From positions 1-40,999 of IMG/VR virus record IMGVR_UViG_3300042731_011251: 40,999 bases of DNA; one strand, given 5' to 3'. The position numbers and the translations under genes are program-made. The stretch comes from a virus. This document shows, in pieces, positions 9,514-32,045 of this stretch; the stretch's first letter is position 1, and every line of letters starts with the position of its first letter. The notes beneath the pieces were generated by a model. It had not been told where the DNA came from. It worked only from the letters and a program-made list of their open reading frames with translations, and did no database searches.

Positions 9514-9549
9514 CAAAAAAGGCGGCGGATCCTTCACAGATCCGCCGCC
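9514..9549 (-). terminator. Rho-independent terminator after the first RNA-led small gene
   Basis: Minus strand: perfect 11-bp stem GGCGGCGGATC/GATCCGCCGCC with a seven-base loop, followed by six T. It closes the transcription unit starting near 10041. Confidence 0.9.
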
Positions 9550-9558
9550 CGGGCAAGC

Positions 9559-9619: not shown

Positions 9620-9865
9620 CTACCCTCTCAACACCTCCTCATCCGGCACCCGCAGCACCAACTGCCGCGCCACATCCGGCGTCAAATTGAACTGACACCA
9701 CCCAAACGCCGCCAGCACCTCGAACGCCGGAACCAGCGCCCCCAACTGCCGCGTCGCGCACTCCTCGCGCGGCGTATACGCCCGCAGCGCCCGCGCGATC
9801 AGCGCACACTCCTGCCAATCCAAACGCACCTCAAACGTATTCAAATGCTCCTGCTTCGCTTCCAT
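9620..9865 (-). CDS. Small protein A behind the structured leader RNA
   Basis: 81 residues. I place the start at the ATG following GAAAGGG and GTCTGGCAAAG, because the paralogue at 31537-31779 begins at the same point. The conserved core is LDWQECALIARALRAYTP, then RQLGALVPAFEVLAAF, then NLTPD. It is largely helical, with no membrane segment and no recognised family. Both copies sit between a promoter plus structured RNA upstream and a terminator downstream. Function unknown. Translation is probably controlled by the leader, since its ribosome-binding site can be paired by an internal strand of that RNA. Confidence 0.8.
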   Translation of the reverse strand: MEAKQEHLNTFEVRLDWQECALIARALRAYTPREECATRQLGALVPAFEVLAAFGWCQFNLTPDVARQLVLRVPDEEVLRG

Positions 9866-10041
9866 CTTTGCCAGACCCTTTCGGCGCCGTAACACACAAG
9901 CCCCCAGCAAAGCGCGCCTTCCCCGGGTCTGGCAACCTGAGATAAACGACGATTCGCTGGGGGCCTGTATCCACAACGCCATTATGCTTGTGAAAGCACA
10001 AGAGGCGCTCCGCCTATTTATCTGTTTAGGTTGCCAGACCT
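9866..10041 (-). ncRNA. Structured leader RNA, copy 1 (candidate cis-regulatory switch)
   Basis: Predicted transcript starts near 10041. Helix 1: GGTCTGGCAACCT (10040-10028) with 9926-9938. It continues after an internal loop as AGATAAA (10023-10017) with 9940-9946, then GGCGG with TCGTC. Inside the closed loop are a conserved TTTCACAA and GGCGTTGTGG, and GCCCCCAGC (9964-9956), which pairs with GCTGGGGGC (9908-9900) outside helix 1. This gives a pseudoknot. A third copy of the helix 1 strand, GGGTCTGGCAA, lies at the ribosome-binding site (9868-9878) and can pair for 11 bp with the same middle strand. All pairings recur, with compensating base changes, in the copy at 31780-31963. No known class recognised. 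Confidence 0.8.
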
Positions 10042-10583
10042 ACTTCCATTATATCACAACCTGTCAACCTCCCGACCGCCCGCGCAGGCACTTCGATATC
10101 AGGCAACGTCTGCATCATTGACAGCAAACGCCGCAACACCGCCAAATCCAACTGACCCTCTTCTCCATTCGCGGGACGGCCCAAATCGTGCTTCTGGACA
10201 AACGCAGAGAATAAGATCTCTACCTCGTCTTTGAATGCCGCTGCGTACAAATCAAACATCTCCCTTATACGCGAAGCCTCTTCTTCAGATAGCTCGAATT
10301 CAATAATCCTTTTTCCGCGATATTGGTAATACGTTCCACCCCAACGCCCCGTTACCGCACCCTTGATTTGTAGCAACAATCGCTTTTCGTATTTAGTGCG
10401 ATATGAAAACGCGACCAATCCCATTTCTACCTGCTCTTGCAGATCGTCCAGCGTCAACCCATTTATAGATAGCAGACGATCTAGCATTCGAGCCGCTGCT
10501 ACCTTTTCTCCATCGTCTCCTCGTTCGGCCAAGGCCTGAACCTTCAATATCTTTTCGCGCAAGCCAACATCGATATTAGTCAT
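10026..10583 (-). CDS. DUF2786 domain protein
   Basis: 185 residues from the ATG five bases after GGAGG. Residues 6-50 (REKILKVQALAERGDDGEKVA, then MLDRLLSINGLTLDDL) match the DUF2786 domain found in many phage proteins. The middle has a basic strand region (FSYRTKYEKRLLLQI; YYQYRGKRIIEFEL) followed by helices. Function of the family is unknown. The last codons overlap the promoter and first helix strand of the downstream structured RNA, so the two are physically tied. It is more AT-rich than adjacent genes. Confidence 0.78.
   Translation of the reverse strand: MTNIDVGLREKILKVQALAERGDDGEKVAAARMLDRLLSINGLTLDDLQEQVEMGLVAFSYRTKYEKRLLLQIKGAVTGRWGGTYYQYRGKRIIEFELSEEEASRIREMFDLYAAAFKDEVEILFSAFVQKHDLGRPANGEEGQLDLAVLRRLLSMMQTLPDIEVPARAVGRLTGCDIMEVGLAT
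10048..10067 (-). promoter_or_regulatory. Promoter-like sequence of leader RNA copy 1
   Basis: Minus strand: TTGACA, only 8 bases, then TATAAT with an extended -10 (TGATATAAT). The same TTGACA-8-TACAAT layout is kept at 31970-31989, so the short spacing is probably meaningful. TTGACA may be an activator or sigma-variant site, not a normal -35. Confidence 0.6.
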
Positions 10584-12104: not shown

Positions 12105-13592
12105 CTACACCCCGCCCAGCACCGCATCCACAAACGCCGTCGCCGCGCCGCCCGTGTACCCCCGCACCCGCATCTCGATCTGCCGCTTACTCGCCCCCTG
12201 CTTGTAGAGCAACCGCACCCGCTCATCGTCCGGCAACCCCTCATCGTCCACCATCGCCGCGGCCTGCGAACCCTCGTCCCGCAACTGCAACATCTCACTC
12301 CCGATGTACGGCGCCTGCGCCTCCACCAGCGGACGCCCCGGGATCCACGCCTGCATCCGCCCGCGCACATCGAACCCCGCCGCGTCCCCGTTCTCCATCA
12401 ACACCCGCGCCTGGCTCGCGCTCATCGTCTTAAACTGGAACCGCGCCCCCAACTGATTGCGGATCGCCGTATCCAGGCTGGACGCCTTCCAATCCTGCCC
12501 GGCCAGAATCAGCCACACCCCGTACTTCCGCGCGCGCAGCACCACATCCCGCAACAACCCCTCCACCGACCTATTCGCCAGCAGCGCCGTCGCCTCATCG
12601 ATCATAATTACAAACGGCGCCAGAATCTCCGCCGCCAGCGCGTTGTACTTCGACAAACTATCCACCCCGGGATACCGCGAAAACAACCCCTTGCGCCGCT
12701 CGATCTCCCCCTCCGCACCCCGCAACACATCCAACGCCGTCTCCACACTATCCGCCAGCGGAAAACGCAACCGCTCCGACTGCGCGAAAGGACTCAACGT
12801 CACCCCCTCCAAATCGATCAACGCCATATCCGGGCGCTCCAGCGCGTTCACACACTGCCACGCCACCCCCCGCAGAAAAACCGACTTCCCCCAGCCGCTC
12901 GTCCCCCCCACCGCGGAATGCACCATCTGCGCCAAGTCGCCCGTAATAACCTCCTGCTCCCCGCGCGCGTTGATCGCCACCCCGAGCACCAGATTATGCA
13001 GCGACGGCGGCCCGTCCAACAACCCCCGCAGCGGCACCCGCGTCGGCAACTCCATCTCGTACGGACTCGGCAGCGCCGCGGGTTCTGACAGCGAATCCGC
13101 AGGACTCCCCGCAACCTTAACCGACAACCGCGACCCCTCCCGCGCCAACGCCTGCGCCCGCTGCACATCCAGCGCCTTCACCGTGATCAACGGATGCGCG
13201 CCCGGATTATCCCGGTTCGGATCGTAAAACACCCCCCGCGCCACCTCGATCAACGCAAACAACCCGTCCCGCGCGTAAACCACCCGGCTCTTCCGCTCCA
13301 ACCACCCCAACCCGATCCACGCCGCCCGCAGCACCCCCATCGTCGCCGCCACCACCAACAACACCCCCGCCCCGCGCGACACCTGCCCCGCCAGCACCTT
13401 CCACGGGAACAACGCCTCCTGCCGCGCCAAATACAACGCCCGCTGCTCCGGATCCAACTGCCGGACCGCCAGCCGCGCGCCTCCGGCCAGCACCGCACCC
13501 ACCACCATACCCAGCACCAGAATTCCCACCAGCACCGCGCTCATCGCCTGCGCCGTCCCTCTCCCTCGCTCGTAAAACCGTCCTCTCTCCAT
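12105..13592 (-). CDS. FtsK/SpoIIIE-like DNA translocase ATPase
   Basis: 495 residues. Two membrane segments (about 15-40 and 75-95) precede a cytoplasmic motor with Walker A GGTSGWGKS (about 227-235) and Walker B FVIMIDEA (about 325-332), in a context typical of FtsK/TraB-type motors (LILAGQDW; GARFQFKTMSASQARVLM). The end carries a short winged-helix-like stretch (LYKQGASKRQIEMRVRG). Such enzymes move double-stranded DNA at a membrane. In a phage that also has ParA, a role in plasmid-like segregation, or in transfer, is plausible. The neighbouring genes are mostly short membrane proteins. Confidence 0.85.
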   Translation of the reverse strand: MERGRFYERGRGTAQAMSAVLVGILVLGMVVGAVLAGGARLAVRQLDPEQRALYLARQEALFPWKVLAGQVSRGAGVLLVVAATMGVLRAAWIGLGWLERKSRVVYARDGLFALIEVARGVFYDPNRDNPGAHPLITVKALDVQRAQALAREGSRLSVKVAGSPADSLSEPAALPSPYEMELPTRVPLRGLLDGPPSLHNLVLGVAINARGEQEVITGDLAQMVHSAVGGTSGWGKSVFLRGVAWQCVNALERPDMALIDLEGVTLSPFAQSERLRFPLADSVETALDVLRGAEGEIERRKGLFSRYPGVDSLSKYNALAAEILAPFVIMIDEATALLANRSVEGLLRDVVLRARKYGVWLILAGQDWKASSLDTAIRNQLGARFQFKTMSASQARVLMENGDAAGFDVRGRMQAWIPGRPLVEAQAPYIGSEMLQLRDEGSQAAAMVDDEGLPDDERVRLLYKQGASKRQIEMRVRGYTGGAATAFVDAVLGGV

Positions 13593-14441: not shown

Positions 14442-14762
14442 CACCCTCACATCGAAACTATGCTTCAAACTCCGCGACGCCCGCTTCGGCACCACCACAC
14501 CCTTCTCCCGCACCCGCGCCAACCCCTGCACCAACAACCACACCACCAGCGACGAAATCCCCACGTGCTCCTGCTCCGCCATCCCGTACAACCGCCGCAC
14601 CAACCCCGGTTGCTTGCTGAAATCAATCGTCACCTTCGTCCGCTCTTTGTCCCGCGCCTTCTGATTCCGCTTCCACTTCGGCAGCCCGCGATCCTCCACC
14701 TGCTGCTCCCGCTCCCCCAGAATCGCCTCCACATCCGCGGTCACCCCATCCCAACCACTCAT
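14418..14762 (-). CDS. Ribbon-helix-helix-like DNA-binding protein, possible ParA partner
   Basis: 114 residues. The centre (KVTIDFSKQPGLVRRLYGMA, then HVGISSLVVWLLVQGL) has the strand-helix-helix pattern of ribbon-helix-helix proteins. The N-terminus is acidic and the middle basic. ParA proteins of this size often work with a small RHH protein that binds repeated sites, and a 12-bp array lies about 170 bases downstream. The DUF5131 gene lies between it and ParA. The C-terminus (VETVDGRR) is made of heptamer repeat sequence. Role inferred from pattern and context. Confidence 0.55.
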   Translation of the reverse strand: MSGWDGVTADVEAILGEREQQVEDRGLPKWKRNQKARDKERTKVTIDFSKQPGLVRRLYGMAEQEHVGISSLVVWLLVQGLARVREKGVVVPKRASRSLKHSFDVRVETVDGRR

Positions 14763-14778
14763 CCCGCACACTCCTCTC
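14755..14778. repeat. 24-bp direct repeat, left copy
   Basis: Identical to 15627-15650. Each copy contains the ribosome-binding site and start codon of the following gene, and together they bracket the DUF5131 gene. Confidence 0.85.
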
Positions 14779-15634
14779 CGGGAAATTGCCTCCATACCTT
14801 CCCGTCGATCTTCCATCCTGTCCACTTCTTCCCCACCCGGAACATCAAGTCACCATTGCTGTATGTGCTCACGCCTCGCTCGAACTTCTCCACGACCCTC
14901 CTCTTCAGCATCCGCACCTCACCCCATTCTCCCCACGACTTGAAGAAGAACGGGACACCGGCGTCTACACATTGATCGCGCAGCCCCCGCACCCAACCCG
15001 GACGCATCGGCCGTGCCCCATTCCCCGTCTCCCCACCGCAGATCACCCAGTCAACACCGTCGCCATAATCAAAATCGTAATCGCTCAATTGAATCTCTGT
15101 TCCTATGTAACCGTCAAGATCAATCTCCCCCAACATCGGCTCCACACTCACAAACCGCAGCGCCGCCGGAGTCTGCAACAACATCGGAATCCGCGTGTCT
15201 GCCTGCTCCTGATTCTCCGCCGTCACCCCCACCCATACATTAGCCAACGGGCCAGAGCCAATTGACCACTCCGCCAGAACAGACTGCATCCGAAACGGGC
15301 GCTTTGTCAATATCTGAAACGTGTGTTGTGGGCAGTCCCGCATAGTTTCCAATAACATCAAAATGACCTCCGTGGGTAGATGCTCGTGAAACAAATCACT
15401 CATCGAACACACAAACACCCTACGTGGCTTCTTCCAACGCTTCGGCGTGTCGAATTTATCAAAATGCGCCGTCACATCGAAATGATGCGGCGCCTCCGGG
15501 TACCCGCACCGCCGCGCCAACCGCCGCGCCATCCGCTCCGCGTAACAATGCGCGCACCCCGGAGAAACCTTCGTACACCCCGTCACCGGATTCCACGTCA
15601 CATCCGTCCACTCGATTCGACTCTTCCCACTCAT
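14759..15634 (-). CDS. DUF5131 / phage Gp37-Gp68 family protein
   Basis: 291 residues from MSGKSRIEWTD, a start highly typical of this family. Conserved segments: WNPVTGCTKVSPGCAHCYAE (6-27, with two Cys in GCxxCYA), FVCSMSDLFHE, FQILTKRP, NVWVGVTAENQ, RFVSVEPMLG, WVICGGETGNGARPM and VPFFFKSWGEW. Full length. The Cys arrangement and barrel-like repeats recall radical-SAM-type folds, but no activity is established. It is flanked by 24-bp direct repeats, so it looks like an insertable cassette. Its last codons (EECAG) are part of the repeat that starts the next gene. Confidence 0.88.
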   Translation of the reverse strand: MSGKSRIEWTDVTWNPVTGCTKVSPGCAHCYAERMARRLARRCGYPEAPHHFDVTAHFDKFDTPKRWKKPRRVFVCSMSDLFHEHLPTEVILMLLETMRDCPQHTFQILTKRPFRMQSVLAEWSIGSGPLANVWVGVTAENQEQADTRIPMLLQTPAALRFVSVEPMLGEIDLDGYIGTEIQLSDYDFDYGDGVDWVICGGETGNGARPMRPGWVRGLRDQCVDAGVPFFFKSWGEWGEVRMLKRRVVEKFERGVSTYSNGDLMFRVGKKWTGWKIDGKVWRQFPGEECAG

Positions 15635-15650
15635 CCCGCACACTCCTCTC
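15627..15650. repeat. 24-bp direct repeat, right copy
   Basis: Perfect match to 14755-14778, 872 bases away. Confidence 0.85.
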
Positions 15651-15683: not shown

Positions 15684-15938
15684 TCACCCTTCTACGTCTC
15701 CCACTCTCAAATACCGCCCGTGCACCGACTTCTGCCACACCAGCGCCCCGCGCACCACCAGCCGCTCCACCTCGTCACTCACCTCGCGCCACCGCAACCC
15801 AAACGCCGCCCCAACATCGAACTCATCCTGATACTTATGCTCCCGCACAAACCCCACAATCGCCCGCTGCCGCTCCGTCAGCTCCTTCTCCCCCCCTTGG
15901 GGGGAGATCGAGAGGGGGGTCTCCGAGAGCGGGGTCAC
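15684..15938 (-). CDS. Small winged-helix protein
   Basis: 84 residues from a GTG that overlaps the ParA stop (GTGA), behind GAGGTGGGG. Residues 20-80 (ELTERQRAIVGFVREHKYQD, FGLRWREVSDEVERLVVRGA, HGRYLRVGD) have a winged helix-turn-helix pattern. The first 18 residues (PLSETPLSISPQGGEKE) are encoded by a family A-like repeat, so the true ancestral start may be a later codon. It may regulate the par operon. Confidence 0.65.
   Translation of the reverse strand: MTPLSETPLSISPQGGEKELTERQRAIVGFVREHKYQDEFDVGAAFGLRWREVSDEVERLVVRGALVWQKSVHGRYLRVGDVEG
15891..15924. repeat. Family A-like repeat at the start of the winged-helix gene
   Basis: CTCCCCCCCTTGGGGGGAG plus ATCGAGAGGGGGGT, translated as the N-terminus. 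Confidence 0.75.
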
Positions 15939-16756
15939 AACCCCACCTCATCCACCACCCGCGTCACCACCTTCTCGTAGCCTCCCACCCTCCTCCCCCC
16001 ACGTGTGGGGGGATTGAGGGGGGTCCCACGCAGCGCCCGGCATCCTGGCGCGTACTCCCACAACGTCTTGCCGTGCCCCGGCGCCTCCCGTGCCTTCACA
16101 TCGATCGGAATTGGCGGATACACCATCTTCCCAAACGCCTCCGCGATCCCCCGCAACTGCGCGTGCCCCTCCTTCGTCGTCCGCTCCCACATCGTCGGCA
16201 GAATACCCAAAAACTGCCCCTGGAACGCCCCCACCCGCTTCAACGAGGCCACCGTCCCCAACATATCCCGCGCCCCCACCGTCGCCAGGTGCGCCAAACT
16301 CACCGGAATAATGAAATGCGACGCCGCCACCAGCGCATTGATCTGCAACACATCCGCCCCCGGCGCACTGTCCAGCACCACAATGTCATACGCCCCGTGC
16401 AGCGCATCCAACGCACCCCGTAGAACCCGCTCCGAAAAACTCTCCCCGTTGATAATCTTCTTCGCCTTCACCGTCGTCTTATCCGACGCCACCAAGTCAA
16501 ACCCCTCCCGCACCGTCCGCGCCACGCCCTCCCCCTTCCCCCCACGCGTGGGGGGACCGAGGGGGGTCCCCAGCGCCAGCCAGGCATACACCCCGTTCCA
16601 CTTCTTGATCCCCAACGCATCCGCGCAATTCCCTTGCGCGTCCAAGTCCACCAACAACACCCGCAGCCCCCGCAGCGCCAACCCGTGCGCCACCGTCACC
16701 GCCGTCGTCGTCTTCCCCACCCCACCCTTCTGATTCACAATCGCCAACACCTTCAT
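15935..16756 (-). CDS. parA: ParA-type partition ATPase
   Basis: 273 residues. Deviant Walker A NQKGGVGKTT (8-17), DLDAQGN (38-44), and the Walker B region YDIVVLDSAPGAD (about 121-133). No N-terminal DNA-binding extension, so it is the short type that pairs with a small DNA-binding partner. It would separate plasmid or phage-plasmid copies along the nucleoid. Two family A repeats are translated in frame (about 63-73, TPLGPPTRGGKG; about 244-254, TPLNPPTRGG). The first lies in a surface loop after the second Walker motif, apparently without breaking the fold. Confidence 0.88.
   Translation of the reverse strand: MKVLAIVNQKGGVGKTTTAVTVAHGLALRGLRVLLVDLDAQGNCADALGIKKWNGVYAWLALGTPLGPPTRGGKGEGVARTVREGFDLVASDKTTVKAKKIINGESFSERVLRGALDALHGAYDIVVLDSAPGADVLQINALVAASHFIIPVSLAHLATVGARDMLGTVASLKRVGAFQGQFLGILPTMWERTTKEGHAQLRGIAEAFGKMVYPPIPIDVKAREAPGHGKTLWEYAPGCRALRGTPLNPPTRGGRRVGGYEKVVTRVVDEVGL
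15993..16025. repeat. Family A repeat inside parA (3' part)
   Basis: CCCCCCACGTGTGGGGGG plus ATTGAGGGGGGT, in frame. Confidence 0.85.
16537..16568. repeat. Family A repeat inside parA (5' part)
   Basis: CCCCCCACGCGTGGGGGG plus ACCGAGGGGGGT, in frame. Confidence 0.85.
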
Positions 16757-16759
16757 CGT

Positions 16760-17593
16760 CTACCGACCTCCTCCCGTAAGCTCCTGAAATAACGGATGCC
16801 GTGCAGACTCAATCTGCGGCGACATCCACAAAACCTCCGTAGCCTGCCTTGCTGATCGTGTGCGCGTCTGCACGTGCATACAATTCCAATCCGCATACAA
16901 CTCCTCGTACAGCGCATTTGGATAACTGCTCAAAATCACACCTCCCTGAAGATTGCGTAGGACCTCCGCCAACTCCACGTGACCATCAGTGTCCATTTCG
17001 TGCGCATACTCCACAAAATGCGATGTACTCCGTGTTTCAACTAGGTAGGGAGGGTCCACGTAAAAAACAGTCGTCGGCGCGTCGAACCGCTTGATAACGG
17101 CAACCGCATCGTCACACTCAAGCTGCAGTTCCTTCAAGCGTTCGACAATATCCCACAAGTGGTACGTTTCATTCCAATTACTCACAAATGACTTCCCTCT
17201 GGACGCAGTTACCTCATACCGCCACCCACTTCTCCACCTGGCTATCCCGCCTCGCGATTGCCACGCTCGCACATAAAACCGTCGCGCCTTCTCTAACGGA
17301 TCATCACAATCTTCGAATGCCAACGCAAGCTCACTTCTTGACACCGGCGTCAACTGGATAACTCGAATCAAATCATTCGGACGATCACGTAACATTTGAA
17401 AAAATCCCACCACACTCTTATCCAAATCATTCCACACATCCACGAATGCAGGCGGCTTTTGCAGAACAACCGCACCAGATCCCCCAAATGGCTCCACGTA
17501 ACATTCGTGCGGCGGCAGAAGATCAAGAATCGCTGACGCCATTCGCCACTTGGATCCGTAATAACTGAAAGCCGGTCTTGCTATATGAGTCAT
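16760..17593 (-). CDS. DNA adenine N6-methyltransferase, D12 class
   Basis: 277 residues from MTHIARPAF. Motif X-like SYYGSKWRMA (10-19), the SAM-binding motif I EPFGGSGAVV (34-43) and the catalytic DPPY (about 180) identify a Dam/D12-class enzyme that methylates adenine in duplex DNA. No restriction partner is adjacent. An orphan methylase of this kind usually protects phage DNA or marks regulatory sites. Moderately AT-richer than its neighbours. Ends four bases before the parA start region. Confidence 0.88.
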   Translation of the reverse strand: MTHIARPAFSYYGSKWRMASAILDLLPPHECYVEPFGGSGAVVLQKPPAFVDVWNDLDKSVVGFFQMLRDRPNDLIRVIQLTPVSRSELALAFEDCDDPLEKARRFYVRAWQSRGGIARWRSGWRYEVTASRGKSFVSNWNETYHLWDIVERLKELQLECDDAVAVIKRFDAPTTVFYVDPPYLVETRSTSHFVEYAHEMDTDGHVELAEVLRNLQGGVILSSYPNALYEELYADWNCMHVQTRTRSARQATEVLWMSPQIESARHPLFQELTGGGR

Positions 17594-17809
17594 TTCCTCT
17601 CCCAATCCCAAAATCTAAAATCAAAAAATCCACGCGCCGGGGGAGGGGATCCCCCGAGGAGCCTTCAGCAGTGGTCGCAGCTCCAGACGCTTACCCGGCG
17701 GATGCCCAATCCGCCACCACTTTCGTCGCCGCACACCCTCGGCTTGCGCGTGGTCGATCACGACCCAGCAGAACCGCAGGTTCTGCCAAGGCGACCGCAG
17801 GTCGCCCCA
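17594..17809. other. Gene-free spacer with hairpins
   Basis: No convincing gene on either strand. It contains a GGCGGAT...ATCCGCC hairpin near 17698 and the family B repeat next to the tRNA. Confidence 0.5.
17768..17806. repeat. Double-hairpin repeat (family B), downstream of tRNA-Thr
   Basis: GCAGAACC-GCA-GGTTCTGC, linker CAAG, then GGCGACC-GCA-GGTCGCC. It directly follows the tRNA 3' end on the minus strand, so it could act in 3' processing or termination. Confidence 0.8.
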
Positions 17810-18897: not shown

Positions 18898-19256
18898 CTT
18901 GAACTTCTGAACGTTCTGAACTTTGCCCCCCTGAACATTGAATAAACCAAACCCCTATCTTCTATTCCTGAGCAGTAGAAAAAATCTCCCCGCCCTTCGA
19001 CCTCATATATAAAGTTCATAAAGTTCATAAGTTCAGTAAAATCGCCCATTTTCGCAAATAAAACCAACAGAGATTCACAACGAAGCCTTGCCGAACTAGC
19101 AAAACCGCAGGTTTTGCCAAGGCGCGCCCCGCGCCACTGAACTTCTGAACTTTATGAACTTTGTGGGGGCACATACCCGGATAAAATTTAATTTAAATAC
19201 ATTTAAACCCTGCTTATACCCTCCACAAAGTTCAGAACGTTCATAAGTTCAGTAAA
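18898..19256. other. Iteron-bearing non-coding region, candidate replication origin
   Basis: Four 26-bp blocks, each made of three TGAAC units (form TGAACTTmTGAACkTTmTGAAC), lie at 18900-18925 (forward), 19012-19037 (reverse), 19137-19163 (forward) and 19225-19251 (reverse). An A/T-only stretch at 19182-19205 (ATAAAATTTAATTTAAATAC) lies between the last two and could be the melting site. There is no credible gene. The primase-helicase and the SSB-tip protein are encoded on either side. Confidence 0.65.
19099..19135. repeat. Double-hairpin repeat (family B) inside the iteron region
   Basis: GCAAAACC-GCA-GGTTTTGC, CAAG, GGCGCG-CCCC-GCGCC. Confidence 0.8.
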
Positions 19257-22781: not shown

Positions 22782-22812
22782 GACTTGTGATAATGAATGA
22801 TTATTTCAAGTC
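22782..22812. other. Recombinase-site-like inverted repeat (site A)
   Basis: GACTTGTGATAA, 7 bp (TGAATGA), TTATTTCAAGTC. The arms match the two sites at 26953-27019. It covers the stop codon of recombinase 1. The layout resembles a tyrosine-recombinase core site. Confidence 0.65.
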
Positions 22813-23839
22813 ACGCCTGCCCCGTCCCCACCCGCCCATCGTTTTCCAGGGCCACGCCCCCGCGGGCGCTACACACACCCAATACCGGAAGTTTCGCGGT
22901 TCCTTCGCTGCTGTTTTCAACTCGTTCCACTGCCGCCCACAACGCCTGCCACTGCGTGTTTCCGACTGCGCCAAGCTGGTCGATGTAGATGCGCGTGGTA
23001 TCCAGGCTGTTGTGCCCCAGGGCATATCTGACATCCCCGAGGTTAGCGCCAGACTCATAGGCGATGCTGGCGTAGGTGTGACGCAGCATGTGGAACGTGA
23101 CTCGCTGGGCGATGCCTGCGGCTTCCGCATAGGAGGAGACCATCTCGACGAGGTACTGGGACGACAGTGTTTGGCGCGGAAAGCGCACCGAGGTAAATAC
23201 CGGATCCTTGTCCACCGGATCGAGTTTACCGCTCGCGCGCTGATAACTGACAATAGCAGCCCAGACAGGCGCCGGAAGTTCATCCGTGCGCTCCTTCGCC
23301 CGCTTGCCGCGCCAGTGGTAACGCCGCCCACCCTGGATGTCACGCCAGCGCAGGTTGCGGATCTCGCTGTTGCGTCGACCGGTGAGGAAGGCCATGAGGA
23401 TAATGGCGTAATCGCGCGCGCCGGTCTCGGTAGTGCGATCTGGCTGGGCCAGCAAGGCACGCATCTCGTCGACGGTGAGGGATCGCACGGTGCCGTACTT
23501 CTGCACGGCGTCACGCTTGACGCGAGTGGTGGGGTTGTAGGTCGTCAGACCCTGCTCCCGACCATCCACGACGACGGTGTGGATGTGGATGCAGTACCGA
23601 TAGAACGAGGAGACTGCCGCCAGGTACGTATTGACGGTGTTGGCGCTCAGGTCGCTATCGTGTAGATCATCGACCCAGGCGCGCACATCCGCACCACCGA
23701 CGTCCGCCAGCGGCTTGTCGACGAAGGCTTTGAAGCGTTTCATCGCGCGCTCGTAGCTGCGTGCCGTGTGTACGCTGCGATGCTGTGCCTCCGCAATCCA
23801 GGCAGTTTCCGCCTCTTGCCACTCACTTCGTTCTGGCAT
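22811..23839 (-). CDS. Tyrosine recombinase 1 (integrase)
   Basis: 342 residues from MPERSEW, behind GGAGAGGAGCGAAAG. N-terminal SAM-like core-binding domain (HTARSYERAMKRFKAFVDKP). The catalytic domain has the first Arg in TGRRNSEIRNL (about 153-162), HMLRHTYAS (about 248-256), and LGHNSLDTTRIYI with the His and the nucleophilic Tyr (about 271-283). Full length. It likely catalyses integration or excision, or resolution at site A, which overlaps its 3' end. It shares only family-level similarity with recombinase 2. Confidence 0.9.
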   Translation of the reverse strand: MPERSEWQEAETAWIAEAQHRSVHTARSYERAMKRFKAFVDKPLADVGGADVRAWVDDLHDSDLSANTVNTYLAAVSSFYRYCIHIHTVVVDGREQGLTTYNPTTRVKRDAVQKYGTVRSLTVDEMRALLAQPDRTTETGARDYAIILMAFLTGRRNSEIRNLRWRDIQGGRRYHWRGKRAKERTDELPAPVWAAIVSYQRASGKLDPVDKDPVFTSVRFPRQTLSSQYLVEMVSSYAEAAGIAQRVTFHMLRHTYASIAYESGANLGDVRYALGHNSLDTTRIYIDQLGAVGNTQWQALWAAVERVENSSEGTAKLPVLGVCSARGGVALENDGRVGTGQA

Positions 23840-24056
23840 CTTTCGCTCCTCTCCCGATCTCACGCAGGACGCGGGCGGCGTCCTGCACCTCGCTCAACTC
23901 CAACCCGGCGATGGATAGGTAGTGCAGGGCCATCGGGTTACGGCTTCCGACGGCGTTGACCGCCGCCTTCAGCGCATCCCGCATCCCGCAGGTCGCCCGT
24001 TCGACACGGGTCAAACTCTGGTTGTACTTCGTCGCACCGACCTTGGCCTTGGTCAT
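23823..24056 (-). CDS. Small helical protein
   Basis: 77 residues. Starts with a basic N-terminus (MTKAKVGATKYNQSLTRVERA), then two helices (MRDALKAAVNAVG; LELSEVQDAARVLREIGR). Its end overlaps the start of recombinase 1 by 17 bases, and its start overlaps the upstream stop by four. It could be an excisionase-like or recombination accessory factor by position, but no motif shows this. Confidence 0.6.
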   Translation of the reverse strand: MTKAKVGATKYNQSLTRVERATCGMRDALKAAVNAVGSRNPMALHYLSIAGLELSEVQDAARVLREIGRGAKDARTK

Positions 24057-26952: not shown

Positions 26953-27019
26953 GACTTGTGATAAATCGCCCATTTATCACTACTCCGACCCGTGATAATT
27001 GCCTCAATTATCACAAGTC
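26953..27019. other. Two recombinase-site-like inverted repeats (sites B and C)
   Basis: Site B: GACTTGTGATAA, 9 bp, TTATCACTACTC (26953-26985). Site C: GACCCGTGATAA, 9 bp, TTATCACAAGTC (26987-27019). The outer arms are a perfect 12-bp inverted repeat. Directly upstream of recombinase 2. Confidence 0.7.
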
Positions 27020-27051
27020 GATTCGTGCTGGATGAACTGGAGTCCATAAGG

Positions 27052-28029
27052 ATGAGCAAAAAACGACTATTGACCCTCTCGAACGCCGCCGTGGGCTTGC
27101 TTTTGCAAATGGAAGGCAGCGGCTACAGCGAGTACACCGTCCGCAACTACCGCCTCGTCTTCACGCGCCTGGTCGACTACCTCGGCGCAGACACGCCCAT
27201 CGCCACCATTGGAGCGGACGACATCACGCAGTTTATGGCGCACCTGGCGACATTGCGCCAGGCGCCCGCGGGCATCGCCTCACGACCCTCACGACGCTTC
27301 AGCAACAAGACCCTGCGCAACCATCACACCGCCGTGAGCGCCCTCTGGACCTGGGCCGTCGAACAGGGCTACGCGGACGATCACATCGTGCGCCGCGTCA
27401 AACCGCCCCGCCCCACCAAACCCACCATCGTCCCCTTCACCACCGACGACATCCACGCAATGCTGTCCGCGACCGCACGCAACCGCAAATACGTCCAGGT
27501 ACACTCCAAGACACTGGCCGCCAACAAACGCCCCACGGCCCTGCGCGACAAGGCCATCCTGCTCTTGCTGCTCGACACCGGCCTGCGCGCTCAGGAACTG
27601 TGCGACGTCACCACCGACAACCTGGACCTCACCAACCGCACTATCCGCGTGTGGGGCAAGGGCGCCAAGGAACGCGTCGTGCCGTTCGACGCCAAGGTCG
27701 GGCGCGCTATCTGGGAGTACCAGACCCAGGAACGCCCCAGCGTCCGCGACAAACACGTCTTCCTGAACAACAAGGGCCACCCGATGGACCCCAACATCCT
27801 CTATAAACTCATCCACCGCATCGGCGACCGTGCAGGCGTGAGCCGCGCCTACCCACACCGCTTCCGTCATACATTCGCCATAATGTACCTGCGCAACAAC
27901 GGCGACATCTTCACCCTCAAGCGCGTGCTAGGTCACGAAACCTTCGAGATGGTCAACCGTTACCTGGAGATCGCTCGGGCCGATATCGAAATCGCCCACG
28001 CCACGGCCTCACCCGTCGCCCACCTCTAA
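27052..28029 (+). CDS. Tyrosine recombinase 2 (XerD-like integrase)
   Basis: 325 residues from ATGAGCAAAAAACG; a GTG further upstream lies inside site C and is rejected. N-terminal SAM-like domain (YSEYTVRNYRLVFTRLVDYL). Catalytic residues: Arg in TGLRAQEL (about 175-182), Lys in GKGAKERVVPF, HRFRHTFAI (about 269-277), and GHETFEMVNRYL with His and the nucleophilic Tyr (about 293-304). Full length and plus strand, adjacent to the tRNA-Val attP-like core. The best candidate for the chromosomal integrase. Its 3' end overlaps the next gene on the other strand by 21 bases. Confidence 0.9.
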   Translation: MSKKRLLTLSNAAVGLLLQMEGSGYSEYTVRNYRLVFTRLVDYLGADTPIATIGADDITQFMAHLATLRQAPAGIASRPSRRFSNKTLRNHHTAVSALWTWAVEQGYADDHIVRRVKPPRPTKPTIVPFTTDDIHAMLSATARNRKYVQVHSKTLAANKRPTALRDKAILLLLLDTGLRAQELCDVTTDNLDLTNRTIRVWGKGAKERVVPFDAKVGRAIWEYQTQERPSVRDKHVFLNNKGHPMDPNILYKLIHRIGDRAGVSRAYPHRFRHTFAIMYLRNNGDIFTLKRVLGHETFEMVNRYLEIARADIEIAHATASPVAHL

Positions 28030-31418: not shown

Positions 31419-31448
31419 TTATCAATCTCCCTCTCCCCCTGCTCCCCA

Positions 31449-31481
31449 TCCCCCCACACGTGGGGGGACCGAGGGGGGTAC
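31449..31481. repeat. Family A repeat
   Basis: CCCCCCACACGTGGGGGG plus ACCGAGGGGGGT, between the tail-tip gene start and a terminator. Confidence 0.8.
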
Positions 31482-31536: not shown

Positions 31537-31779
31537 CTAAAGCACCAACGCCTCCGGCACACCGAACGCCACCAGCGCCTCGCGCGCATCCGGCGGCAAA
31601 TTCCACCGCTCGAACGCCAACGTCGCCAGCGCCTCGAACGCCGGGACCATCGACCCGAGCTGCCGGTCCGCGCGCTCGCTCGGCGGCGTAAACGCCCGCA
31701 GCGCCCGCGCCACCAACGCGCACTCCTGCCAATCCAACGACACCTTCACCACACCCGTACCAACCCCTACCACTTCCAT
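31537..31779 (-). CDS. Small protein B behind the structured leader RNA (paralogue of protein A)
   Basis: 80 residues starting at the ATG after GAAGGGG and GTCGACAAG. Shares with the 9620-9865 protein the blocks LDWQECALVARALRAFTP, RQLGSMVPAFEALA and NLPPD; roughly half the residues agree. No signal peptide or membrane helix, no cysteine cluster apart from one conserved Cys in QECAL, no family recognised. It interrupts the tail operon between tape measure and tail tip but has its own promoter, leader RNA and terminator, so it is transcribed separately. Confidence 0.8.
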   Translation of the reverse strand: MEVVGVGTGVVKVSLDWQECALVARALRAFTPPSERADRQLGSMVPAFEALATLAFERWNLPPDAREALVAFGVPEALVL

Positions 31780-31963
31780 CTTGTCGACCCCTTCCTGGCG
31801 CTAAAACGCACAGTCCCCCAGCGGGCGCGCTTTCTTCCTCCGGGGTCGACAAACCTAAGAGAATTACGGCAGACCGCTGGGGGACTCTACCCACAACGCC
31901 AATGTTTGTGAAAGAACGCAAAAAAGCGCCCTGCCTTATTTCTCTGTTTCGGTTTGTCGACCT
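31780..31963 (-). ncRNA. Structured leader RNA, copy 2 (candidate cis-regulatory switch)
   Basis: Starts near 31963. Helix 1: GGTCGACAAACC (31962-31951) with 31844-31855, extended by AGAGAA/TTCTCT and GGCAG/CTGCC. Pseudoknot: AGTCCCCCAGCG (31886-31875) with CGCTGGGGGACT (31823-31812), 12 bp. A further pairing GGCGCT/AGCGCC links the loop to the region just before the ribosome-binding site. The third strand GGGGTCGACAA (31781-31791) contains the ribosome-binding site and can pair for 11 bp with the helix 1 middle strand. TTTCACAA and GGCGTTGTGG are kept unchanged from copy 1. Confidence 0.8.
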
Positions 31964-31969
31964 ACATCT

Positions 31970-31989
31970 ATTGTACCACACCTTGTCAA
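31970..31989 (-). promoter_or_regulatory. Promoter-like sequence of leader RNA copy 2
   Basis: Minus strand TTGACA, 8 bases, TACAAT, with an extended TG. Same geometry as at 10048-10067. Confidence 0.6.
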
Positions 31990-32010
31990 CCCTTGCTATC
32001 CCCGCCGCTC

Positions 32011-32045
32011 CCCATCCCCCCACACGTGGGGGGACCGAGGGGGGT
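32011..32045. repeat. Family A repeat abutting the tape-measure stop codon
   Basis: CCCCCCACACGTGGGGGG plus ACCGAGGGGGGT. Confidence 0.8.

Follow-up and report, generated by a model that had tools for sequence, protein, structure and literature searches.

The two structured RNAs analysed here belong to a family of phage leader RNAs in which a single antisense strand (a') is complementary both to an upstream strand (a) and to a downstream repeat of that strand (a'') positioned on the ribosome-binding site of a small gene. Comparison of family members shows that a' has two mutually exclusive potential partners, one of which covers the ribosome-binding site. We regard it as probable that these leaders are self-antisense translational switches on moron-like cassettes, built like the CI RNA of phage P4 (seqA/seqB/seqC) and the c4 RNA of phage P1.

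The window, that is, the whole stretch of DNA that was analysed, comprises 40,999 bases of a virus record and encodes terminase, portal, protease, tape-measure, and tail genes. It also contains two dissimilar tyrosine-recombinase genes on opposite strands (22811-23863 and 26992-28029). This gene set, together with the two recombinase genes, identifies the virus as a temperate tailed phage.

Layout of the two leaders in the window

An earlier note on this DNA had described structured RNA copies at 9866-10041 and 31780-31963. Both are found there, both on the minus strand, and both are leaders that run as far as a small gene's start codon. Their parts, each followed by the kind of evidence on which the assignment rests, are as follows.

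10048-10053, minus strand: copy 1, -10 element TATAAT, within TGTGATATAAT (sequence)
10028-10040, minus strand: copy 1, strand a, GGTCTGGCAACCT, predicted transcript 5' end (pairing, covariation)
10010-10023, minus strand: copy 1, P2 5' strand, AGATAAA plus GGCGG (P2 pairing, swap test)
9971-9992, minus strand: copy 1, CACAA..TTGTG hairpin, the conserved motif of the earlier note (alignments)
9953-9970, minus strand: copy 1, pseudoknot strand b, ATACAGGCCCCCAGCGAA (b:b' pairing)
9940-9952, minus strand: copy 1, P2 3' strand, TCGTC plus TTTATCT (swap test)
9926-9938, minus strand: copy 1, antisense strand a', AGGTTGCCAGACC, partner of a or a'' (pairing, covariation)
9894-9911, minus strand: copy 1, pseudoknot strand b', TTTGCTGGGGGCTTGTGT (b:b' pairing)
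9868-9878, minus strand: copy 1, strand a'', GGGTCTGGCAA, over the ribosome-binding site, 11 bp with a' (covariation)
9620-9865, minus strand: copy 1, small gene, 81 aa, MEAKQEHL..., family I (protein comparison)
9520-9550, minus strand: copy 1, end of cassette, terminator-like hairpin and T run (hairpin scan)
31970-31975, minus strand: copy 2, -10 element TACAAT, within TGTGGTACAAT (sequence)
31951-31962, minus strand: copy 2, strand a, GGTCGACAAACC (pairing, covariation)
31874-31886, minus strand: copy 2, pseudoknot strand b, AGTCCCCCAGCGG (b:b' pairing)
31844-31855, minus strand: copy 2, antisense strand a', GGTTTGTCGACC, followed by CC (pairing, covariation)
31812-31824, minus strand: copy 2, pseudoknot strand b', CCGCTGGGGGACT (b:b' pairing)
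31781-31791, minus strand: copy 2, strand a'', GGGGTCGACAA, over the ribosome-binding site, 11 bp with a' (covariation)
31537-31779, minus strand: copy 2, small gene, 80 aa, MEVVGVGT..., family I (protein comparison)

Helix 1 (a:a') forms as the earlier note had it, from GGTCTGGCAACCT/AGGTTGCCAGACC in copy 1 (10040-10028 with 9938-9926) and from GGTCGACAAACC/GGTTTGTCGACC in copy 2 (31962-31951 with 31855-31844); the ends of strand a of copy 1 could additionally form a GGT..ACC mini-hairpin. The inner extension of helix 1 (P2) and the H-type pseudoknot (b:b') also pair as described. The stretch from b to b' is a hairpin of 77 nt in copy 1, with a' close to its tip, and of 75 nt in copy 2; across the family it measures 70-79 nt in 15/15 copies and is predicted to be far more stable than shuffled sequences. 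The elements TTTCACAA and GGCGTTGTGG, which had been reported as unchanged, are identical in the two window copies and in these only; their counterpart in relatives is a variable hairpin (CACAA..ATA..TTGTG), which some members form only weakly. The earlier note took the two elements for a binding site, but nothing shows them to bind a ligand.

The earlier note did not mention strand a'' at the ribosome-binding site, nor the genes that follow the leaders, nor that transcription is predicted to start at helix 1. Strand a'' is a repeat of the 5' strand of helix 1 and spans the ribosome-binding site right before the start codon, the junctions being GGGTCTGGCAA-AG-ATG in copy 1 and GGGGTCGACAA-G-ATG in copy 2. 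Because a recurs as a'', a' can pair with either, and a' plus its trailing C residues forms 11 bp with a'' in both window copies. The last two C residues of this stretch form C-G pairs at the Shine-Dalgarno GG that are invariant in 14/14 copies; the a'' sequence was not found at other start codons of the same contigs. Judged from these complementarities, the defining feature of the RNA is the set of alternative a/a'/a'' pairings, which would put the ribosome-binding site under the antisense strand.

In the window copies, a TGTGRTAYAAT box is followed after approximately 7 nt by the predicted transcript start at the first base of helix 1. Nearly all family members have a TGTGRTAYAMT-like box 6-8 nt 5' of strand a, a position from which a should be the exact 5' end of the transcript. 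The small proteins encoded downstream of copies 1 and 2 are 52% identical.

Relatives and covariation of the pairings

Seven viral contigs were retrieved by their TerL proteins (approximately 60% identical), and four loci on three of them (L009-L012) have the same leader followed by a related small gene. Additional leaders were sought by a sequence-independent geometry search for a k-mer immediately ahead of a start codon that recurs farther upstream, with its reverse complement lying between the two occurrences. Applied to 956 kb of TerL-alignment loci, this search yielded three new leaders with new codes (i.e. new sequences of the matching a, a', and a'' strands); a matching promoter box and a related small protein accompany each of them. 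A protein search contributed one further leader (G020), and the geometry search over whole contigs contributed four (G016b, G021, G022, and G024). When the promoter box was required, the last geometry run returned 18 rows, among them duplicates of one site and a few that are non-members by eye, versus none in reversed sequence. A covariance model, trained on five copies only, matches copies in other phages at E-values of 6e-9 to 0.015 and added the leader G020b, in which helix 1 has a mismatch and a'' matches a. The family thus totals 15 leaders in 10 phage contigs, 13 of them beyond the window copies.

Full Rfam scans of the window and its relatives, at gathering and at relaxed thresholds, produced chance matches only, in agreement with the earlier note's failure to recognize an Rfam class. 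No family members were found among isolate phages or plasmids. With the small protein as query, viral, bacterial, isolate-phage, and plasmid collections returned already-known viral contigs or nothing; the search of bacterial genomes with the small protein and TerL was empty, using strict peptide patterns that distant relatives could escape. Searching viral contigs with the RNA written as DNA patterns returned nothing, or the known contigs plus L019, a chance terminator match.

Whether each strand fits its own partner better than those of other copies was assessed by strand exchange among 13 distinct copies (20000 permutations). Pairing energies for own versus non-self partners were -24.9 versus -8.7 kcal/mol for a:a', -20.0 versus -8.6 kcal/mol for a':a'', -46.1 versus -31.0 kcal/mol for b:b', and -16.1 versus -12.2 kcal/mol for P2, with 0/20000 swaps as good in every case. 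Strand a' favours its own a'' over that of every other copy in 13/13. Relatedness was left uncorrected in swaps and shuffles, but the conclusion does not hinge on it because the codes differ so widely.

Pair counts were made over 14 copies, in an alignment consisting of the helix strands only, joined by fixed spacers. Helix 1 has 98.6% standard pairs, with both sides changed in 9/10 pairs and a covariation score of 0.905 versus 0.184 when shuffled (0/500). For a':a'', 91.1% of pairs are standard, 11/12 columns are nearly complete, both sides have changed in 8/12 pairs, and the score is 0.757 versus 0.172 (0/500). Both scores are far above those of slid alignments. The pseudoknot helix b:b' is 100% paired over 13 bp, with 75 cells changed on both sides (at most 48 in shuffles); in full it is 13-20 bp long, and it varies freely. 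The pairing described in the earlier note is far beyond chance, and the concerted change of the helices, which the earlier note had read from two copies, extends to the relatives.

The two ends of strand a are mutually complementary in 14/14 copies, which use five end types, and in 9/108 cases when ends are exchanged between copies; a and a' can therefore show their variable core in a small loop. Two other candidate helices were rejected: an inner stem flanking a' failed the swap test (1987/20000), as did a fourth helix between the stretch preceding the Shine-Dalgarno sequence and the P2 3' strand (9236/20000), which looks good by eye in three copies.

Cassettes, downstream genes, and copy-specific codes

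The leader RNA heads at least four kinds of unrelated small (~80-aa) genes. A single family of ~80-aa proteins (DVxLTxxEC...) follows 10/15 leaders, a second family follows G020b and G024 (E = 2e-5 to each other), and the proteins downstream of G016b, G021, and G022 are unrelated to both (G021 versus G022, E = 0.07). The small proteins tested had no Pfam match above the cut-off and no convincing PHROG or PADLOC match, and the fold predicted for the small protein with fair confidence (pLDDT 83) had no significant match in PDB or viral libraries. A type III toxin-antitoxin system (ToxIN-like), in which tandem RNA repeats precede a ToxN-family endoribonuclease, was considered and rejected, the leader being a single RNA unit and the small proteins tested having no match in Pfam or PADLOC.

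The cassettes occupy many sites along a shared gene order, on either strand: the gap between portal and TerL genes (on the opposite strand), the gaps between an MTP-like gene and TMP and between TMP and tail J, and positions near TerS, near the integrase, and before the primase. In phages that have no cassette between portal and TerL, the gap there is only about 15-75 bp. From the scattered places, both orientations, and unrelated genes, it follows that the RNA is a module. Most cassette genes have a hairpin on their 3' side; in G020, G021, G022, and G024, no dedicated terminator is obvious. Units of promoter, gene, and terminator thus stand between conserved phage genes and vary among relatives, and the cassettes fit the description of morons in which the RNA leader is the constant part. 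A 39-bp direct repeat (ACCCCCCTCGGTCCCCCCACGTGTGGGGGGATGGGGAGC) flanks the second cassette of the window (31441-31479 and 32007-32045), and its 27-nt core occurs in the window in these two copies only; it is possibly a footprint of cassette movement. No direct repeats of at least 15 nt flank the other cassettes.

Variation is concentrated in the codes, which are hypervariable. In four near-identical leaders (G003, G005, G006a, and G006b), the cores of a, a', and a'' are variable at 9/18 positions versus 9/137 elsewhere; counting a alone, 3/6 positions vary (P = 0.008). The two codes of a two-copy phage are unlike each other in 5/5 such phages, and orthologous cassettes have a common code in one pair (G003 and G006b) and unlike codes in another (G005 and G006a). 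Diversification of this kind is what would be expected of immunity-type specificity.

Several other features of these genomes were recorded. At 18900-19256, the window has four clusters of 8-9-bp repeats (TGAACTT, spaced by approximately 9 bp) on both strands, and a ParA-like gene (15935-16756) lies in the same half. Relatives have comparable clusters with other units: ATGAACGT in L112 (19510-19817), GGAACTTTG in L006 (~900-1180), and TGTAACTT in L125 (~16735-16855). All of these resemble operators specific to each phage, iterons, or a partition site. A 24-bp unit, ACCTGTGGTGAGCCTGTCGAACCA, is repeated six times in tandem in L012 (~760-900), where the array is inserted within the portal gene of phage G006, and it is missing at the corresponding position of L011; a related unit, GAGCCTGTCGAAGGATGG, recurs in spacers of L009 and L010. 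Accessory genes in the replication half of the window (14759-15643, 16760-17611, and 12105-13592) encode a DUF5131 protein (Pfam E 1.6e-93), a D12-class adenine methyltransferase, and an FtsK/SpoIIIE-like protein.

Proposed switch, rival explanations, and known systems

In the mechanism that we propose, transcription would begin at strand a, and as long as a (with P2) holds a', the ribosome-binding site would be free and the gene ON. Were a lost or outcompeted, a' would cover a'' and the gene would be OFF; an a' strand from a different transcript that shares the code would have the same effect. The b-a'-b' hairpin would be the likely mature antisense RNA, and the variable core of a' would set its specificity, allowing copy-specific feedback or superinfection immunity. 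We infer that a newly made message would be ON, since a:a' and P2 are the first pairings to form and the stronger ones. As a:a' in cis (-24.9 kcal/mol) also beats a':a'' (-20.0 kcal/mol), repression would require 5' processing, a ligand or protein, or an RNA acting in trans. In a nested-model calculation, deleting a had no uniform effect across copies, and it lowered the predicted accessibility of the ribosome-binding site in G005, G006a, G003, and G006b. From the pairings, switching in cis appears very probable. Action in trans is a real possibility that we place somewhat below even. We offer only tentatively, and would sooner doubt than assert, that each cassette has a selected private antisense code, such that transcripts with a common code would silence one another in trans and those with different codes would not interfere in the same cell.

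Other readings accommodate part of these data. Much as a' would here, the 3' strand of P1 in translational riboswitches either completes P1 or pairs with a partner located at the ribosome-binding site. Such a switching helix, with a variable P1, is also the design of classical riboswitches. The leader might thus sense a ligand or protein without any action in trans, P2-P4 and the pseudoknot forming the aptamer and ligand binding stabilizing P1 (a:a') and freeing the ribosome-binding site. A U-rich loop, the CACAA..ATA hairpin, and GGGCTTGTG are partly conserved, as an aptamer would be, but conservation of the inner part is only partial outside subgroups (A8 mean column identity 55%), b:b' varies freely, the downstream genes are unrelated, and a shared ligand does not explain why near-identical copies have unlike codes. 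The leaders also match no Rfam riboswitch and have copy-specific codes within one genome; we consider this reading unlikely. Somewhat less likely still would be a timer acting purely in cis, in which the intact mRNA is ON and 5' decay of a frees a' to shut off the ageing message, the codes reflecting drift and template switching between repeats and not selection for specificity. The location of a at the predicted 5' end and the drop in predicted accessibility without a in the four leaders named above suit such a timer, and template switching between inverted repeats can homogenize repeated strands. That effect is not uniform, however; drift does not readily yield unlike codes in all five two-copy phages; and the complementary ends of a are maintained as they would be for loop-loop recognition.

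Autoregulation, with the small protein binding its own leader as ribosomal proteins do, could be entertained since ten leaders head one protein family, yet the same RNA precedes unrelated proteins (G016b, G020b/G024, G021, and G022) and the predicted fold resembles nothing significant in the libraries searched, which makes it very improbable. A role at the DNA level only, as repressor operators or transposition repeats, is the least credible explanation and seems to us extremely improbable. The dyad-like ends of a (GAG-N7-CTC), the many insertion sites, and the 39-bp repeat around the second cassette would agree with it. A reader of GAG-N7-CTC, however, would not need an identical N7 core in three places and in fixed orientation, the CTC half is missing from a'', b:b' and P2 covary in the manner of helices, and the other cassettes have no such flanking repeats.

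The self-antisense switch, in turn, has precedents among phage immunity RNAs. The P4 CI RNA is approximately 70 nt long, P4 CI and P1 c4 RNAs being roughly 70-80 nt, and c4 RNA covers a ribosome-binding site with a specificity that differs between P1 and P7. The predicted b-a'-b' hairpin is close to both in size; as in P4, one antisense segment has upstream and downstream targets (a:a' and a':a''), and as with c4, it is complementary to a downstream ribosome-binding site in the same transcript (a':a'', 14 copies). The antisense segment of CI RNA pairs with seqA upstream and seqC downstream in the phage leader, and the a/a'/a'' order matches this seqA-CI-seqC order (PMC4825925). P4 acts by transcription termination, and a pattern scan of the two window copies, together with reading of the other leaders, showed no conserved terminator inside them. 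The leaders differ from P4 in that their downstream target is the ribosome-binding site itself, in their long b:b' pseudoknot, in having several scattered cassettes per phage with unrelated small genes, and in their lack of an Rfam match. In P1, a C4 antisense RNA of the same operon blocks the downstream immI genes (PMC8198154); the corresponding model for P1/P7 c4 (RF01695) has no match in the window at E<=10. Both systems control lysogeny genes, whereas the cassettes described here are scattered.

Two prophage RNAs are also comparable. The leader structure of IsrK of the Salmonella prophage Gifsy-1 controls translation of a downstream open reading frame and has been likened to P4 SeqA RNA; the excerpted source describes no a/a'/a'' arrangement for IsrK (PMC4825925), and the leaders reported here match no Rfam family. 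The antisense RNA STnc6030 of prophage BTP1 relies on complementarity to exclude superinfecting phage (PMC7067206), but its target is a late gene and it is not a self-complementary leader.

The leaders constitute a family of structured RNAs that Rfam lacks. Their three-way covariation is unusually clear and makes both alternative states of the switch readable from sequence alone. Their copy-specific matching codes suggest that each copy is a private on/off lock made of RNA, comparable to the P1 and P4 immunity RNAs. Because each natural copy is a separate matched set, the family would supply orthogonal RNA switches. If action in trans is true, immunity-type antisense control would not be limited to single lysogeny operons such as those of P1 and P4 and would extend to a mobile module with diversified codes, by which unrelated accessory genes are kept under private control. 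If the codes do act as private locks, these phages would possess a modular RNA immunity or incompatibility system that is independent of the gene it controls.
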